A DNA stretch of 64,000 nucleotides, taken from the NCBI GenBank assembly GCA_913064945.1, contig CAJYAN010000003.1, positions 124,001 through 188,000 on the forward strand. Reading direction: 5' to 3'. The stretch is from an uncultured Gammaproteobacteria bacterium (GTDB taxonomy: Bacteria; Pseudomonadota; Gammaproteobacteria; UBA6429; Thiohalophilaceae). Numbering within the stretch: position 1 is the stretch's first letter; each line of letters begins with the position of its first letter. Shown in pieces: positions 47,657-56,639 of this stretch. The notes below the pieces were generated by a model. It was given only the letters and a program-made list of their open reading frames with translations. It was not told the origin of the DNA and did no database searches. The position numbers and the translations under genes are program-made.

Positions 47657-48964
47657 TTGGCTAAACCAATAAAATCGCATAGCGGACTGCTCAAACTACT
47701 CCAGAAAAAAGAAAAGTCTGGTGGGACAATTACGCTGGAAGAAATATTAGATGCCAGCGGTTGGAAAGAAGTTTCCTTCAAAACATATTTAAAAAAAGGT
47801 CAATTAAGCGAATTCTTACAAGAAATTGGTAGTAATATTTTTCAATCTACTAATACCATCGGACTTTCAGTAAGCGATTTTTCGAGTCTACTATCACAAA
47901 GCAAACATCGAAGAGAACTTGGGTATCTATTTAAGTCTGGCTTAGCTAAAGCTCTCCTCCGAAAATCACGTGACAATATGCTTCTAGCAATGGAGTTATA
48001 TAATAGGCCATCACTAGAAAACAGGCTGGATGGTTTTGTATTATGCTTTTGTGTTGCATGGGAGCAGTTACTAAAAGCGGTCTTAATCGAAGGAGAAGGT
48101 GAAGAATCAATATATAAAACCAAACAGAAAAATTACGACATGCGTGAAACCATATCACTACGTGACTGCCTAAAGCATCTTATGCCCGAAGACAGCTTAA
48201 CAAGAAAAAATATTGAAAAAATTACTTTTTACAGAGATCAGGCAGTTCACTTATTGATGCCCGAGGTTCAAAGTATCATTTCGCGCTTATTTCAATCTGG
48301 AATTATTAATTATGGAAAATTTTTCCAAGAACACACGGGGTCTACATTTCTTGGAAGTAGCCAAAGTGGAATGATCTCTTTGGTTGGCGACTTATCAGAA
48401 CCGTCAATTCCAATACTTAGAAATAAATATGGAAAAAATACTGGAGATGAAGTCATCAATCTTATAGATGACCTTAAGAATGATGCTATAAATACAAATA
48501 ATATTGAGTTTTCAATACCCATCAATGTCAAACTAACCTTTGCCAAAAAAGATGACTCAGGCAACCTAATAACATTATCAAAAGCAGATGATGGAATAGA
48601 TGGGCTACAGAGAGCTTTGATTGTTGAAAAGCCAGTAGACCGACATAACACTCACCCATTTCGCGAACATGTTGCAATAGAACAGATTAACCGAAGACTA
48701 TTGGATAGGTACACACAAGAAAAACTAAAAGAATACTTGATTGCAAAAAATAAAGAAACCAACTTTCCACGCATAACCACGCATGACTTCCGTGCAATCA
48801 TTCATAAACTCAAATGGAAAAAAAGTAACAACAAACATCATTATTTAAATAAAGATCCAGTAGTGCATTACTACTCAGATACAGCTATTGAAGAAATCAT
48901 CCAAAAGATAATGGACAAGAAAAATTTTCTACGAAACACAAGAGAAAGCTATAAAAATAGGTGA
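47657..48964 (+). CDS. DUF3644-type protein with HEPN-like motif, AT-rich
   Basis: 435 residues. An N-terminal segment (1-65) looks like a winged-helix unit (TITLEEILDASGWKEVSFKT). The middle (about 95-215) matches DUF3644: SRDNMLLAMELYNRPSLENR, CVAWEQLLKAVLIEG, then FYRDQAVHLLMPE with R193-x4-H198, the pattern of HEPN ribonucleases. The C-terminal part (370-435) is another small basic helical unit (RITTHDFRAIIHKLKWKK). The gene is strikingly AT-rich beside valS and starts at TTG right after an in-frame TAA with no good ribosome site, which points to horizontal transfer. An abortive-infection or RNA-cleavage role is inferred only. Confidence 0.75.
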   Translation: MAKPIKSHSGLLKLLQKKEKSGGTITLEEILDASGWKEVSFKTYLKKGQLSEFLQEIGSNIFQSTNTIGLSVSDFSSLLSQSKHRRELGYLFKSGLAKALLRKSRDNMLLAMELYNRPSLENRLDGFVLCFCVAWEQLLKAVLIEGEGEESIYKTKQKNYDMRETISLRDCLKHLMPEDSLTRKNIEKITFYRDQAVHLLMPEVQSIISRLFQSGIINYGKFFQEHTGSTFLGSSQSGMISLVGDLSEPSIPILRNKYGKNTGDEVINLIDDLKNDAINTNNIEFSIPINVKLTFAKKDDSGNLITLSKADDGIDGLQRALIVEKPVDRHNTHPFREHVAIEQINRRLLDRYTQEKLKEYLIAKNKETNFPRITTHDFRAIIHKLKWKKSNNKHHYLNKDPVVHYYSDTAIEEIIQKIMDKKNFLRNTRESYKNR

Positions 48965-49122: not shown

Positions 49123-49737
49123 ATGAGTGGTTGTTGTGAAAATAATTGTGCTGTAGATGCTCTTCGCGAGAAGCAGCGAGGTACACTGCAAATTGTTCTC
49201 GGCATTAATGCCATTATGTTCTTGGTTATTGTGCTGGCCGCATTCTATGGCAAGTCAACTTCCCTGCTTGCTGACAGCCTTGATAACCTTGGCGATGCGA
49301 TTACCTATAGCCTGAGCCTGTACGCTGTTTCCAGGGGCGCCTCCGCAAAGGCCAGGGTTGCGCTATTCAAAGGCGGTTTAATTTTTCTCGCGGCATGTGC
49401 GGTAATTGCCCAGATTGTTTACAAGCTCTTCGTTCCAAGCATCCCGGTATTTGAAGTCATGGGTGCATTCAGCCTCCTTGGCCTCGTGGCCAACTCACTC
49501 TGTCTTTACCTGCTTTGGCGCCATCGTCATGAAGATGTCAATATGAGCTCAGTGTGGGAGTGCTCACGAAACGACATCGCCACAAATCTTTCTGTGTTTG
49601 TGGCGGCGGGAGCCGTCTGGTTCACAGGTTCGGGTTGGCCCGATATAGCCGTTGCGCTTGGTCTCGTGTGGTTGTTGATACGTTCTTCGATTCGTGTCAT
49701 TTCATCAGCCATGGCAGAACTCCGTGCAGCAAGCTGA
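49123..49737 (+). CDS. cation diffusion facilitator family protein, short form
   Basis: 204 residues. A Cys-rich start (SGCCENNC) may bind metal. About six helices follow with the CDF site in LLADSLDNLGDAITYSLSLY (TM2) and CSRNDIATNLSVF (TM5), so both Asp pairs are present. There is no C-terminal ferredoxin-like domain and no His-rich loop, so it is a minimal CDF protein. It probably exports Zn, Cd, Co or Fe. ATG at 49123. The neighbouring LysE-type gene is 60 bp downstream. Confidence 0.85.
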   Translation: MSGCCENNCAVDALREKQRGTLQIVLGINAIMFLVIVLAAFYGKSTSLLADSLDNLGDAITYSLSLYAVSRGASAKARVALFKGGLIFLAACAVIAQIVYKLFVPSIPVFEVMGAFSLLGLVANSLCLYLLWRHRHEDVNMSSVWECSRNDIATNLSVFVAAGAVWFTGSGWPDIAVALGLVWLLIRSSIRVISSAMAELRAAS

Positions 49738-49797: not shown

Positions 49798-50418
49798 ATG
49801 ACGACTGGAACTTATCTACTCTATATCGTGATTGCGGCGGCTTTGATTGTTGTCCCTGGCTCCAATGTCTTACTGATAATTGCCAACATTGTTAAACATG
49901 GTACGCGTGCTGGTTTACTCACGGTGGCTGGCACCAGCGCCGCCATGGCGCTGCAACTGGCTATCGACACGCTTGGTATCAGTTCTGTACTACTCATCGT
50001 GACTAACTGGTTTCACTGGTTACGCCTGGCCGGTGCGGTGTATTTGATCTACCTGGGCATTAAAAGTCTACGATTACGCAATAGGTCATCAGCTATTCCT
50101 ACAGTGACAAAGGCCCATCGCTTGTTTCTCTAGGGATTCCTGGTTTCGATCGTCAATCCCAAGACACTGTTGTTCTTTTCTGCCTTTCTGCCGCAGTTTG
50201 TCACAACAGCATCACCGGCCTTGCCACAACTACTGATATTGTCGGCGACCTTCCTGCTATTGGCCGTTATGTTCGATAGTGGTTATGCACTGCTTAGCGG
50301 TAAACTATTCTGCAGGATAAGCACTTCGGCACAGACCATGTTACAACGCCTGACAGGCTGGTTACTTATTTGTGCTGGTGTGTTGCTGGGATCGAGCCAC
50401 CTGGACACGAAGCCATAG
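49798..50418 (+). pseudogene. LysE/RhtB-family amino-acid exporter interrupted by one amber codon
   Basis: Reading one frame from ATG at 49798 to TAG at 50416-50418 gives a normal-length exporter (about 206 codons) with a single TAG at 50131-50133. Before it: LIVVPGSNVLLIIANIVKHG and RLAGAVYLIYLGIKSLR; after it: GFLVSIVNPKTLLFFSAFLP, the hallmark of LysE proteins, then two more helices. No frameshift is needed. It is either a recent nonsense mutation, a sequencing error, or (less likely) a decoded stop. If functional it would export amino acids such as homoserine, threonine or lysine. Confidence 0.85.
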
Positions 50419-52186: not shown

Positions 52187-52215
52187 AAAAGCGCACACCC
52201 GGTGCGCTTTTTTTT
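52187..52215 (+). terminator. rho-independent terminator after the lipoprotein gene
   Basis: GCGCAC/GTGCGC stem with a short loop, preceded by A4 and followed by T8. It begins 20 nt after the stop codon and ends 10 nt before the next promoter. Confidence 0.92.
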
Positions 52216-52225
52216 GTCTTACTGG

Positions 52226-52257
52226 TTGACTCTGGAGTCCACTCCAATGATTTGATA
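52226..52257 (+). promoter_or_regulatory. MerR-family (ZntR-like) metal-responsive promoter
   Basis: A -35 TTGACT is followed by the inverted repeat TGGAGT-CC-ACTCCA (52233-52246) and a -10-like TTGATA at a 20-bp spacing. The first 20 bases, TTGACTCTGGAGTCCACTCC, differ by one base from my memory of the E. coli zntA promoter. The over-long spacer with a central palindrome is the hallmark of promoters twisted open by MerR-type activators. The start ATG is 19 nt downstream. No merR-type gene lies nearby. Confidence 0.8.
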
Positions 52258-52275
52258 CGGTCATTGGAGGTGTCC

Positions 52276-52725
52276 ATGGCATCATGTTGTTCTACCGAGA
52301 ATCATAACCCTGTAAAAAATCCTTGCCCCGTCTGTGGTACGGCAGGCAAAGCAGTCGCCATATCGAGTCTGTATCACCAGATACGCTTTCCGGACAACCT
52401 GACAGTCCCCGCTGCGGATTATTACTTATGTGCTAAACCGGATTGCGCGCTCGGCTACTATAGCGACACGGGGTTATGCTTTAAAAAATCCCAGTTGCGC
52501 GAAGCAGAGCATATCGCGGCGGGCTGGTTATGTTATTGCTTTGATATCTCCAAGGCTGATTACCGAGCCGCACTAGACAATCGCAATGCCGATGAGATCA
52601 AAAAATTCGTCATTGAGCAAACCAGGATTGGCAGCTGTGCCTGCAGTAGCCGCAACCCATCCGGCCAGTGTTGCCTGGCAGATTTCAAACGTGTAGAAAA
52701 GGTGTACGCCAATGAACCGCAGTAA
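52276..52725 (+). CDS. Cys-rich BFD-like/CopZ-N-like metal or [2Fe-2S] protein
   Basis: 149 residues from ATG at 52276, with GGAGG five bases upstream. N-terminal half: ASCCST, CPVCG and YLCAKPDCALGYYS, a zinc-ribbon-like set as in the N-terminal domain of Archaeoglobus CopZ. C-terminal half: CYCFDISKADY and RIGSCACSSRNPSGQCC, a BFD-like [2Fe-2S] domain. Fourteen cysteines in all. Likely a metal-handling or metal-reducing chaperone. It sits directly behind a MerR-type promoter and overlaps the next gene by 14 bp, so the two are one metal-induced unit. Confidence 0.78.
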   Translation: MASCCSTENHNPVKNPCPVCGTAGKAVAISSLYHQIRFPDNLTVPAADYYLCAKPDCALGYYSDTGLCFKKSQLREAEHIAAGWLCYCFDISKADYRAALDNRNADEIKKFVIEQTRIGSCACSSRNPSGQCCLADFKRVEKVYANEPQ

Positions 52726-53089
52726 GACATCGTTATCAACCCTTGGTACTGTCCTGCTTGCCCTCCTACCACAGGTCTTCTGCCCGGCCTGCTGGCCGGC
52801 CTATACCGGTGTCCTCAGTTCGCTTGGCCTGGGCTTTATTGACTACTCGCCCTACCTGTTACCCCTGATGAGCGTCTTTATGCTTATTGCGCTATGGGGA
52901 CTGTTTCACAAAGCGGCTACACGCAAAGGCTACCGACCATTTATACTGGGCTGTCTCGCGGCCAGTGCTATCCTCCTGGGTAAGTTTGCCTTTCAGCTCG
53001 ACAGCATGCTGTATGCCGGTGTGGTCCTATTCGTCATCGCCTCAATATGGAATGCCTGGCCCGAGCGCAATGCCGTCTGTTCGGTCTGA
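52712..53089 (+). CDS. MerC-like membrane protein
   Basis: 125 residues, about four membrane helices. TM1 ends in QVFCPACWPAYTGVLSSLGL, a CxxC pair in the membrane entrance as in MerC, and the four-helix layout with an Arg/Lys-rich loop (HKAATRKGYRP) also fits. MerC-type proteins carry Hg(II) inward in mer operons; some relatives may carry other soft metals. No merA, merP or merT is present. The start overlaps the upstream Cys-rich gene by 14 bp. A GTG/ATG choice is not an issue; ATG at 52712 has AAGG upstream. Confidence 0.75.
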   Translation: MNRSKTSLSTLGTVLLALLPQVFCPACWPAYTGVLSSLGLGFIDYSPYLLPLMSVFMLIALWGLFHKAATRKGYRPFILGCLAASAILLGKFAFQLDSMLYAGVVLFVIASIWNAWPERNAVCSV

Positions 53090-53100
53090 ACAGGGTCGAA

Positions 53101-53128
53101 GCAAGAGAATAATTTTCAATTCTCTTGC
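53101..53128 (+). terminator. hairpin after the MerC-like gene
   Basis: Perfect 10-bp stem GCAAGAGAAT/ATTCTCTTGC with an AATTTTCA loop, 11 nt after the stop. No T-run follows, so it may be a weak terminator or a 3'-end stabiliser. Confidence 0.5.
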
Positions 53129-53152: not shown

Positions 53153-53220
53153 CGCGCCCATACCACTTGGAGCACGGTTAACTGTTGACCTTTCCAGGGG
53201 AGTGTATGACTGAGGGGGCA

Positions 53221-54345
53221 ATGCCCCGGGATGGCAACATGATGCGTCACGCCTCTCTCCAGGACCTTGATACCCTGGTAGAGATTGAAAACAAAGCCTT
53301 CGCTACTGACCGTTTTTCACGACGCAGTTTCCGCTACCTGTTGACCCGCGCCAAGGCCGAGACACTGGTCTATATTCTTAATGACAAAATGATTGGCTAT
53401 GTCATGCTGCTATTCCACTCCGGGATATCCATGGCACGACTCTATTCACTCGCCCTCGACCCGGATTCCCGTGGCAAGGGGATTGGCCGCGAACTCATGC
53501 AGGCGGCGGAACAGACCGCTCTCAGCCATGACTGCATTATCCTGCGGCTTGAAGTTCGGGCGGATAACACATCAGCCATCCGTCTATATCAGCAACAGGG
53601 TTATCGCCAGTTTGATAAAACCCCTGACTACTATGAGGACCACATGGAGGCGCTCCGGTTTGAAAAACGCCTACAGCCCTCTCTCAAACCGGACCTGAAA
53701 CGTGTGCCCTATTACCGGCAAACGCTGGATTTCACCTGTGGTCCGGCCACACTGATGATGGCCATGAAGGCCCTCGACCCGGCGGTGGCGCTGGATCGCA
53801 AACTGGAACTGCGACTTTGGCGGGAATCGACTACCATTTACATGACCTCCGGCCATGGTGGCTGTGGTCCGTATGGTCTGGCGCTGGCCGCCTATCGCCA
53901 TGGCTTTGATGTAGAGATCTACGTTAACGAAGAAGGGGTAATGTTTATCGATTCCGTGCGCAATCAGGATAAAAAAGAAGTCATGCGCCTGGTACAGGAA
54001 GATTTTACCGAATCGCTGCAGCAACTCCCCGTCGACCTGCACTATGGTGCACTCGATGTGACTGACTTACAGGAAAAATTTAACGCCGGTGGTATCCCGA
54101 TTGTACTAATCAGCTCCTACCGAATTTATCATGAAAAATTTCCTCATTGGGTTGTCGTCACAGGCTTTGACGAAAAGTACATTTATGTCCATGATTCCTA
54201 TATTGACAGTAAGGGTGATAAGACTGAACTCGACACCAGCGATATGCCTATCTTAAAAAAAGATTTTGAGTTAATGGCACGCTACGGTAAGGCCGGTCAG
54301 CGTGCTGTGCTCATACTTAAAAAACGATCTAACACTAAACAATAA
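53221..54345 (+). CDS. GNAT acetyltransferase fused to a C39-like cysteine peptidase (DUF3335)
   Basis: 374 residues from ATG at 53221 (GAGG five bases upstream; ATG at 53206 and TTG at 53185 are alternatives). Residues 8-150 are a RimI-like GNAT domain: YSLALDPDSRGKGIGRELM binds acetyl-CoA and NTSAIRLYQQQGYRQ is the C-terminal hallmark. Residues 163-360 are papain-like C39: QTLDFTCGPATLMMA (Cys173), KFPHWVVVTGF (His309) and YVHDSY (Asp325) give a full catalytic triad. No export signal, so it should act in the cytoplasm. First of three tightly spaced genes with a RimK-type ligase. Substrate unknown. Confidence 0.87.
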   Translation: MPRDGNMMRHASLQDLDTLVEIENKAFATDRFSRRSFRYLLTRAKAETLVYILNDKMIGYVMLLFHSGISMARLYSLALDPDSRGKGIGRELMQAAEQTALSHDCIILRLEVRADNTSAIRLYQQQGYRQFDKTPDYYEDHMEALRFEKRLQPSLKPDLKRVPYYRQTLDFTCGPATLMMAMKALDPAVALDRKLELRLWRESTTIYMTSGHGGCGPYGLALAAYRHGFDVEIYVNEEGVMFIDSVRNQDKKEVMRLVQEDFTESLQQLPVDLHYGALDVTDLQEKFNAGGIPIVLISSYRIYHEKFPHWVVVTGFDEKYIYVHDSYIDSKGDKTELDTSDMPILKKDFELMARYGKAGQRAVLILKKRSNTKQ

Positions 54346-54363
54346 GACTGGAATACCAAACCC

Positions 54364-55833
54364 ATGCCTCACATTATTATTGTTGACCAACTCAGTGACT
54401 GGCTTAGCGATTATCCCGTCGCCAATCTGGTGACGGCAAAAGATTATCTCTCCCGACCCGAACAATTCCGAAGCAAAGGAACACACATCATTAATCTGTG
54501 TCGCAGCTACCGCTATCTAAAGAGTGGTTATTACTGTTCGTTGCTTGCCGAGGCGCGTAGCCACAAGATCATCCCTAGCGTGCGTACCATCACTGACCTG
54601 AGTAAAAAATCGATTTATCAGCTCAATGTGGAAGACCTGGACGATGTCCTGCAGCGTGTCCTCAAAAAACGACCTACCAACAAAGATCAGGATCATCTGA
54701 GTATTGATATCTTTTTTGGTCAGAGCGAGGACAAGGAAATACAGGAAATCGCCCGGCAGATTTTTGAGCTATTCCGCGCCCCGCTGATGATGGTGGAATT
54801 TCGCCGCCAGCAAAAATGGACGATTAAACAAATCAAACCCCTGCACATCAATACGCTCACTTCAGAGCAGCAGATATTTTTTGCTGGTTGCTTAAATGCC
54901 TACTTAACTAGTCGCTGGCGTGCACCACGCGCCAAAGCCGTGGCCCGTTATGACCTGGCCATACTCTACGACCCGGAAGAGAAACTACCTCCTTCAAGCA
55001 TGGGCGCTCTAAAAAAATTTATGGCAGAGGGAAAAAAGCTCGGCGTTGATGTCGACCTGATAACGCGCAAGGACTATAACCGTCTGGCCGAATATGATGC
55101 GCTGTTTATTCGAGAAACTACCGCAATCAGTCACTACACCTATCGCTTTGCTAAAAAGGCCGAGGCCGAAGGCATGGTAGTGATGGACGACCCCGATTCT
55201 ATTTTGAAATGCACCAACAAGGTGTATCTGGCTGAATTGTTGGCAAACCACCAGGTACCGGCCCCGCGCAGTATGATCCTGCCCAGGGAAGATGCGATCC
55301 AGGCACTCGATGGTTTCGGTTATCCCGTGGTTCTGAAAATTCCCGATGGCTCCTTTTCCCGTGGCGTCTTCAAGGCCACGACCCCGGCCGAGGCTATGAG
55401 TATTACGCAAAATCTTTTTAAAGAGTCCGATTTGATTCTTGCCCAGGAGTTTCTCTATACCCAGTTTGACTGGCGCATTGGCGTACTCAATCGGAAGCCC
55501 ATTTTCGCCTGCCAGTACCACATGTCACGCGCCCACTGGCAGATCGTCAAACATGAACCCGGCGGTAAACCACGGCATGGCGAACACCTGACACTGGCGC
55601 TGGATCAGGTACCCGAGAATGTGCTGAAAATTGCCGAGAAAGCGGCGGGCTTAATTGGTAATGGTCTCTATGGTGTCGATATCAAAGAAAACGAAGGTAA
55701 CGTCTATGTCATTGAAGTGAACGATAATCCTAATATTGATAATGGTGTCGAGGACCAGGTGCTTGGTAACTCACTCTACCAACTCATTATTAATGAATTT
55801 ATTAGTCGTATTGAACAACGACGCAACCATTAA
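54364..55833 (+). CDS. RimK-family ATP-grasp ligase with RLAN-type N-terminal domain
   Basis: 489 residues. The first 200 residues match the RimK-like ATP-grasp N-terminal (RLAN) type: VDQLSDWLSDYPVANLVTAK, INLCRSYRYLKSGYYCSLLA. The ATP-grasp core (about 285-485) shows KVYLAELLANHQVPAPRSMI, YPVVLKIPDGSFSRGVFKA, LAQEFLYTQFDWRIGVLN, and the Mg site EVNDNPNIDNGVED. It should form an amide bond, likely adding an amino acid to a protein or peptide C-terminus or side chain. It follows the GNAT-C39 gene by 18 nt and precedes the RMD1 gene by 14 nt. It is not canonical RimK (about 300 residues). Confidence 0.87.
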   Translation: MPHIIIVDQLSDWLSDYPVANLVTAKDYLSRPEQFRSKGTHIINLCRSYRYLKSGYYCSLLAEARSHKIIPSVRTITDLSKKSIYQLNVEDLDDVLQRVLKKRPTNKDQDHLSIDIFFGQSEDKEIQEIARQIFELFRAPLMMVEFRRQQKWTIKQIKPLHINTLTSEQQIFFAGCLNAYLTSRWRAPRAKAVARYDLAILYDPEEKLPPSSMGALKKFMAEGKKLGVDVDLITRKDYNRLAEYDALFIRETTAISHYTYRFAKKAEAEGMVVMDDPDSILKCTNKVYLAELLANHQVPAPRSMILPREDAIQALDGFGYPVVLKIPDGSFSRGVFKATTPAEAMSITQNLFKESDLILAQEFLYTQFDWRIGVLNRKPIFACQYHMSRAHWQIVKHEPGGKPRHGEHLTLALDQVPENVLKIAEKAAGLIGNGLYGVDIKENEGNVYVIEVNDNPNIDNGVEDQVLGNSLYQLIINEFISRIEQRRNH

Positions 55834-55847
55834 AACCGAGAATAATT

Positions 55848-56639
55848 ATGTTGAAATTTGACACTAGTAAGCCCCTCACCGCTCGCGCCATGTATCTTGG
55901 TCAACGCCTCGACCTACGTGCTCTGGAGAAGACACAGCCACTGGAGACCAACCCGCTAACCATAACGGCGGGGAATAATGGTATTGTCGTTCTGTTCCGT
56001 TATGGTGTAACGGTTTTTTTTGGCATGCACTCCAGTGAAATCATGTCATTCATTAATGATATCAGGACTTGCATCATACTGCCCTATGCCGAACCTGAAG
56101 CGGAAGACGAAGAATTATATGTCAGCACAGGTGAAGTTGAAGGCATCCACAATGAACGTATACGCTTACATGGCTTTGACGTACAACGCTTGCAAATTAT
56201 CGCCGACGTACTGGCTAAAAATGTCGTTCTAGCTCATTACGAAACCGACCTGAATTACTATATTGATGAAATCGAACCCCTCGCCGCCAAGCTGGGTAAG
56301 CAACACACGATTGGCAAAGGCAGTAAGGAGTTATTACGCTTTATCGGTGATGCGTTACTGATTGAAGGAAAAATGATTGGCCGCGTCGAAGCGACGGAGA
56401 AACCGGAACTGATCTGGGATTACCCTGAATACGAACGACTCTACATGCGTCTGGAAGATGAATATGAACTCTCTGAACGTCAGAGTGCGCTGGAACGAAA
56501 ACTCTCCCTCATCTCCAAAACCGCAGAGACTTTGCTTGGCATTCTACAGAATCAACGTTCATTGCGGGTTGAGTGGTATATTGTGATTTTAATCGTTGTT
56601 GAAATTGTTATTACCCTGACTGAAAAACTGGTGCATTAA
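55848..56639 (+). CDS. RMD1/DUF155-family protein
   Basis: 263 residues. DUF155 core (about 45-215): NNGIVVLFRYGVTVFFGMHS at 44-63, then ELLRFIGDALLIEGKMIGRV and LIWDYPEYERLYMRLEDEYE. A single C-terminal membrane helix (about 241-259, WYIVILIVVEIVITLTE) anchors it. Yeast relatives Rmd1/Rmd8/Rrg-type act at mitochondrial ribosomes or vesicles; the bacterial role is unknown. Third gene of the GNAT-C39/RimK operon, so it may tether that activity to the membrane. Its stop overlaps the stop of the decayed ATPase gene on the other strand. Confidence 0.85.
   Translation: MLKFDTSKPLTARAMYLGQRLDLRALEKTQPLETNPLTITAGNNGIVVLFRYGVTVFFGMHSSEIMSFINDIRTCIILPYAEPEAEDEELYVSTGEVEGIHNERIRLHGFDVQRLQIIADVLAKNVVLAHYETDLNYYIDEIEPLAAKLGKQHTIGKGSKELLRFIGDALLIEGKMIGRVEATEKPELIWDYPEYERLYMRLEDEYELSERQSALERKLSLISKTAETLLGILQNQRSLRVEWYIVILIVVEIVITLTEKLVH

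Follow-up and report, generated by a model that had tools for sequence, protein, structure and literature searches.

A CopZ-like and a MerC-like gene behind a MerR/ZntR-type promoter: a probable two-gene unit for mercury or a similar soft metal

Which metal does a MerR-type promoter serve when it drives a cysteine-rich protein and a MerC-like membrane protein, and which regulator acts on it when none is encoded alongside? The question was raised by a pair of genes in the window, the whole 64,000-nucleotide stretch of DNA analysed here, which the original prediction had described as a compact soft-metal unit behind an orphan promoter. Our analysis indicated that the pair is probably a two-gene unit for mercury or a similar soft metal. 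The word "compact" needs correction: the unit seems to belong to a regulon with dispersed members, since two promoters associated with MerR genes, both away from the window contig, have the same operator core, and a merR-T-P-A operon is encoded on another contig.

Promoter, gene layout and neighbours

The copZ-merC unit is set apart from the upstream gene, which ends at a strong intrinsic-terminator-like hairpin on the forward strand (52187-52211; 10-bp perfect stem, 5-nt loop and T-run). The MerR/ZntR-type promoter behind it (52226-52256, forward strand) was compared with the Escherichia coli zntA promoter and with promoters of its own genome. The operator sequence, TTGACTCTGGAGTCCACTCCAATGATTTGATAC, has its first base at 52226, begins with the -35 element TTGACT (52226-52231) and contains the perfect 6-bp dyad TGGAGT-CC-ACTCCA (52233-52246, forward strand); the genome has three sites of this type. 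None of 200 mononucleotide shuffles of the 64-kb window contained the tighter operator motif. The first 21 bases of the ZntR-controlled zntA promoter, TTGACTCTGGAGTCGACTCCAGAGTGTATCCT, were identical to those of the 52226 promoter at 20 positions, and the dyad occupied the same position in both; the right outer arm (CCAGAG) and the TATCCT -10 element of zntA were not kept. These comparisons bore out the predicted ZntR/MerR-type operator with a central palindrome. The 20-bp spacer predicted with it is arguable: it is obtained with TTGATA as the -10 element (52252-52257, 2/6 bases), but the best match, TTTGAT (52251-52256, 4/6 bases), gives a spacer of 19 bp, which fits better. With either element, the promoter combines a 19-20-bp spacer with a central dyad.

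A 9-bp perfect inverted repeat, CTCCAATGA/TCATTGGAG (52242-52269, forward strand), overlaps the operator, the -10 element and the leader; it surrounds the -10, and its left arm is common to the operator. This repeat is a possible but weak candidate for a second binding site, and was set aside: perfect repeats of at least 9 bp are not rare, being found in 38 of 2131 90-nt windows across the 64 kb, and there was no close relative for comparison.

The copZ-like ORF1 (52276-52725, forward strand) starts with an ATG at 52276 behind GGAGG and encodes 149 aa with 13 cysteines, where 14 had been counted previously. The merC-like ORF2 (52712-53089, forward strand; 125 aa), assigned by PF03203, hydropathy and alignment, overlaps ORF1 by 14 nt, in agreement with the overlap described at the outset. 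A repeat scan revealed a 10-bp perfect inverted repeat 3' of the unit without a T-run (53101-53128, forward strand). Beside the pair, neither MerR nor MerA nor a P-type ATPase could be identified, with translations inspected by eye and family models applied to the nearest genes only, which matches the lack of an adjacent regulator, reductase or P-type ATPase reported before. A cluster holding both merR and merA was not found here; both genes are on another contig.

Other genes of the window were annotated in passing. A CDF-family cation transporter with an N-terminal CCENNC (49123-49737; PF01545, 51.9 bits) shares 67% identity with the CDF protein from the L223 cluster (MerR-Trx-MerC-Grx-CDF), in which the window MerC likewise has a relative. 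Neither a regulator nor an operator was seen before the CDF gene, and the idea of an operator at this site was dropped. A LysE/RhtB-like transporter gene, identified by eye (49798-50418), contains one in-frame TAG (50131-50133). A DUF3644 protein (47657-48964, 152 bits), which also resembles restriction endonucleases weakly and below threshold, is encoded in a stretch of ~35-44% GC that has a valS-like gene on one side and the CDF gene on the other and is possibly an acquired defence island. On the other side of the unit, the 53209-56639 region encodes a RimI-type acetyltransferase fused to a C39-like peptidase (DUF3335), then RimK-like ATP-grasp and DUF155 proteins, and may be a peptide-modifying cluster.

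The CopZ-like and MerC-like proteins

ORF1 matched the NCBIfam model NF047645 (CopZ_Nterm_CC) with 129.3 bits (cut-off 100) over model positions 1-138 of 138 and Pfam zf_CopZ (PF18423) with 46.2 bits (cut-off 28.4); the score against Pfam Fer2_BFD was under the cut-off (14.8 vs 26 bits). On the evidence of the two former models, ORF1 is a CopZ N-terminal-domain protein and a member of NF047645, and the initial CopZ/BFD-like assignment was upheld. The conserved zinc and Fe-S cysteines of the family are present as a predicted Zn site (C17/C20/C52/C57) and a predicted [2Fe-2S] region (C86/C88/C121 and CC132-133). Cysteines C17, C52, C57, C86, C88, C121, C123, C132 and C133 were invariant in 40/40 aligned NF047645 members (44 tried, the window and 43 loci, 4 of these loci giving no row), CC132-133 being part of the selection pattern for 39 of the 40. 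A filter-free alignment of 6 sequences displayed the same cysteine conservation (6/6). Searching the PDB with phmmer returned 2hu9 as the sole match (E 1e-4). Similarly, when an AlphaFold2 model of ORF1 built from six sequences (mean pLDDT 78.9, pTM 0.55) was submitted to Foldseek, both 2hu9 chains were the only matches under E 0.001 (best E 3e-5, TM ~0.42-0.49).

ORF2 scored 34.9 bits against Pfam MerC (PF03203, cut-off 27.6) and 34.2 bits against the MerC equivalog NF033784, far under the cut-off of 140. Judged by the Pfam model, it is a MerC-superfamily membrane protein, as the earlier MerC-like call had it. The membrane CxxC ascribed to this protein was also recovered: the CPAC motif lies within the first hydrophobic segment (TM1) and aligns with the CASC of MerC proteins from mer clusters. 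The C-terminal CxxC of MerC relatives is represented by a single cysteine in ORF2, and a sequence search of the PDB with ORF2 gave no match. The nine closest intact relatives of ORF2 in 369 class genomes (E <=2.1e-28) all come from the C-terminal portion of Trx-like–MerC fusion proteins, and a MerR gene adjoins or lies close to every one of them. ORF2 has no Trx part, and the CopZ gene occupies the place of this part in the window. The Trx-like–MerC fusions near MerR genes (L169-L177) apparently form a distinct MerC subfamily.

CopZ contexts and a shared operator core

NF047645 was found over its cut-off in 24/369 class genomes and in 9/40 relatives, the window's own genome being counted in each case. 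We surveyed the contexts of 32 other over-cut-off CopZ loci, with flanks of up to ~6 kb where the contig allowed. Mer-type genes adjoined or were fused to CopZ at 16 of the 32 loci; with the seeds used, none was found at the other 16. Arrangements with MerT/P were MerR-T-P-A–CopZ, MerR-T-P-A–MerC–CopZ, MerR-T-P–CopZ and MerT-P–CopZ; further contexts were MerP–CopZ–MerF, MerF–CopZ, MerR–CopZ, MerR–MerC–CopZ, MerC–CopZ and Trx–DsbD–CopZ–MerR. MerC was located beside CopZ in three other genomes. Two MerB/CopZ fusions (PF03243 + PF18423) were identified, one in the order MerB-CopZ (L087, 5393-6457) and one in the order CopZ-MerB (L089, 5350-6483), with MerB domains of 77 and 101 bits (cut-off 27). 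The MerC-CopZ neighbours and the MerB fusions fit a CopZ-like protein that would exchange metal with MerC. As Rosetta-type evidence, the Trx–MerC and MerB–CopZ fusions support pairings between a thiol domain and MerC and between CopZ and MerB, and not directly one between the present CopZ and MerC. At another locus (L088, 5599-6025), the merR upstream of CopZ is split into two overlapping frames, likely by a frameshift.

A search of genome contigs with CopZ gave six matches, four of which were MerR-T-P–CopZ or MerR–MerF–CopZ, in one case followed by merB. The plasmid relatives comprised 21 records in all, which are not 21 independent cases because several are near-identical: MerR was upstream in 16 (one by our own ORF call on an unannotated record), merA/merB close by in 2, ArsR with a P-type ATPase in 2 and nothing in 1; merB followed CopZ in 2 of the 21, and several relatives were near copper-type genes. 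The portions of the literature covered, including PMC8261052, PMC9312934, PMC13188914 and PMC12195606, gave no account of a CopZ gene within a mer operon; coverage of subscription journals was incomplete, and this is hence no proof of novelty.

The genome (22 contigs, 3.2 Mb) holds five MerR_1 genes. The promoter is therefore an orphan locally but not genome-wide, and the proposed metal-responsive unit, which depended on a MerR-family gene elsewhere in the genome, stands in this respect. Scanning the genome with the operator core pattern TTGAN{0,4}TGGAGTNNNCTCNA gave exactly three matches (one with the reversed control): the window site at 52226, a site upstream of trx-dsbD-merR (L002), divergent from and adjoining merR-T-P-A, and a site upstream of a solitary merR on contig 4 (L005). 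The merR-T-P-A operon is on contig 1, separate from the window contig, and encodes a TIGR02051-type MerR (155 bits vs cut-off 151). This MerR is a less likely regulator of the window pair, as the operator of its own operon has GTAC half-sites.

The operator survey was extended to loci fetched from 58 searched genomes (own included), with 1-3 spacer bases, and 27 matches were scored. Eighteen preceded Trx/DsbD genes and two directly preceded a MerR of this clade; the remaining seven did neither (two contig-end run-offs, one divergent from such an operon, three unexplained and the window itself). The gene order Trx–DsbD–CopZ–MerR was found behind the operator core in L101, L206 and L207, and the same order was present in L100. 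The DsbD–MerR pair of the window's genome has no CopZ in between, and the single CopZ gene of this genome is ORF1. A search of relatives for both promoter and gene pair had been suggested: the operator core does recur, before Trx–DsbD–(CopZ)–MerR operons, but no close relative with the exact CopZ-MerC pair and order was found. Compared with the clade consensus, the 52226 operator has one extra base after the -35 and a weak -10. We also observed that an operon made of the GGAGT operator, Trx, a DsbD_TM protein, (CopZ) and MerR is widespread in relatives (L198-L217, L101, L104); these operons optionally include an HMA protein, MerT-like and outer-membrane-like genes, and are often beside mer genes.

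These data are best read as control in trans, because the operator core mostly precedes Trx–DsbD–(CopZ)–MerR operons in relatives and because, in the window's genome, this core is shared, the DsbD–MerR pair is devoid of CopZ and the sole CopZ gene lies in the window. The window pair would thus be under one of the two MerR-clade regulators, L005 or L002. Among MerR proteins, the equivalent of Cys82 marks divalent-metal sensors; CueR is devoid of this residue. L005 is a three-Cys MerR and has the Cys82 equivalent, which L002 does not have. The residue is present in the CopZ-adjacent clade MerRs of L100, L101, L206 and L207, and in 32/34 MerR proteins of CopZ clusters, the exceptions being one fragment and one protein not adjacent to CopZ. 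L005 may therefore be preferred over L002; the preference is suggestive only, since the MerRs of L100, L101, L206 and L207 are related to each other. Neither candidate reached any cut-off of the ZntR, CueR, CadR/PbrR and MerR models; scores against the ZntR model TIGR02043 were 86 bits for L005 and 103 bits for L002 (cut-off 168), and neither qualifies as ZntR.

A proposed mercury-type regulon, its rivals and known systems

We propose, with a probability of roughly 0.55, that the window pair is a dispersed member of a soft-metal regulon, most likely for Hg(II), in which MerC imports the metal, the CopZ-like protein accepts it and a MerR protein acts in trans. A metal-bound MerR-clade activator encoded elsewhere, most likely L005 and in second place L002, would activate copZ-merC from the GGAGT operator (52226). 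MerC would carry the ion across the inner membrane via the CPAC of TM1. The cytosolic CopZ-like protein, with its predicted Zn and [2Fe-2S] sites and many thiols, would take the ion thiol to thiol, buffer it and then hand it to MerA, encoded here on contig 1; in MerA-less genomes it would be the end acceptor, where the metal stays.

The mercury reading is favoured by the 20/27 operator matches before a Trx/DsbD operon or a clade MerR, the mer-type context of 16/32 CopZ loci with two MerB–CopZ fusions, the merR-T-P-A operon on another contig, the MerR gene upstream in 16/21 plasmid relatives and the Cys82 equivalent in 32/34 cluster MerRs. Several observations argue against it: GGAGT half-sites belong to the Zn/Cd/Pb class (ZntR) in E. 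coli, whereas the mer operon of this genome uses GTAC; 16/32 CopZ loci are without mer genes; 2/21 plasmid relatives follow ArsR and a P-type ATPase; the operator shows a one-base deviation from the clade form and its -10 is weak; and CopZ and MerA do not co-occur above chance.

The main rival is the handling of copper (or silver), in which a CueR-like regulator would control a CopZ-like Cu reductase/chaperone and a MerC-type pore. The only solved relative of ORF1 is indeed the CopZ of Archaeoglobus fulgidus, the cluster of which reduces Cu(II), some plasmid relatives are near multicopper oxidase, CopC, cupredoxin or P-type ATPase genes, and the contig 1 candidate L002 resembles CueR in having no Cys82 equivalent. 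We nevertheless consider copper unlikely: the neighbours of the window pair included none recognised as a copper gene, MerC does not belong to the copper families, CopZ relatives are fused to MerB and found in mer operons, the Cys82 equivalent is present in 32/34 of the MerRs from CopZ clusters, and CueR operators have a different half-site. Less probable again is a ZntR-class unit against Zn/Cd/Pb stress that would act together with the CDF transporter (49123-49737). The CDF gene lies 3 kb upstream and its 67% relative belongs to a MerR-Trx-MerC-Grx-CDF cluster, but no such operator precedes it; the near identity of the 52226 operator to zntA is likewise offset by candidate regulators that both stay under the ZntR cut-off, by the missing P-type ATPase next to the pair and by CopZ-family contexts that, where present, are mostly mer-type. 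That the locus is a relic, in which rearrangement left fragments of a broken mer-type cluster and a promoter that is weak or dead, is very improbable, since both overlapping ORFs are intact with all invariant cysteines kept and the RBS, terminator and operator are in place, despite the weak -10, the in-frame stop of the nearby LysE-like gene, the single cysteine left of the C-terminal MerC CxxC and the separation in the window of CDF and MerC genes whose relatives share one cluster elsewhere.

Under the mercury reading, MerA would receive the ion where it is encoded. MerA was over its cut-off in 73/369 class genomes, namely in 4/28 CopZ-positive and 69/341 other genomes (Fisher p 0.62); this co-occurrence is no more than chance and failed as support for a MerA partner. 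MerA over the cut-off was absent in 10/12 class-sampled genomes with a mer-context CopZ, a count that may miss divergent reductases below the cut-off; these include G132 and G249, assembled in one and two contigs and given as 100% complete. The window's genome, which encodes MerA, is an exception. In the text covered, a survey of mer genes reports that merA is absent from 906/1795 merB-bearing genomes, asks how MerB catalysis proceeds when there is no MerA to receive the Hg(II), and makes no mention of CopZ (PMC8261052). The MerA-less CopZ clusters bear on this published question, and one candidate Hg(II) acceptor is now visible in MerR–MerT–MerP–CopZ, MerR–MerF–CopZ–MerB and MerR–CopZ–MerB arrangements and in MerB–CopZ fusions. 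We tentatively suggest, as a rather doubtful proposal, that CopZ N-terminal-domain proteins could serve as an end point for mercury detoxification that does not depend on MerA: as Zn/[2Fe-2S] proteins, they would take Hg(II) from importers (MerT/P, MerF, MerC) and from MerB and store or reduce it. If true, this would explain MerB activity in many MerA-less genomes, and the window pair would be a MerC-linked, trans-regulated form of this end point. The question of MerB without MerA becomes testable with a single purified CopZ-like protein.

Collectively, the locus is made of known parts in a new arrangement. Its wider value lies in the association of CopZ with mer genes and in a putative soft-metal regulon whose members, on three contigs, can be recognised by a single operator core. 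ORF1 shares the fold family of the A. fulgidus CopZ N-terminal domain (PDB 2HU9) and keeps its cysteine pattern (CPxC / CxxxxC / CYC / NPSGxCC), with an identity of only ~24%. Unlike full A. fulgidus CopZ, which has a C-terminal HMA (Atx1-like) domain, ORF1 gave no HMA match in Pfam across its 149 aa; its setting is that of MerC and mer genes and not of CopA. The NF047645 label, putative iron-sulfur cluster-binding metallochaperone, comes from family descriptions, without a tested function there. ORF2 has PF03203 and the CxxC in TM1 in common with the Tn21-type MerC of mer operons, but is far under the equivalog cut-off, and its nearest relatives are Trx-like–MerC fusions. The window gene order is CopZ-MerC, whereas the three other MerC-CopZ pairs run in reverse. 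A thioredoxin and a CcdA/DsbD-type membrane protein are also tied to mercury genes in the CcdA/TrxA-containing mer operons of actinobacteria, according to the part of a review that was covered (PMC12195606); compared with these, the Trx-DsbD operon of the present genome has its own MerR and a GGAGT operator, and lies on a contig other than that of the window.
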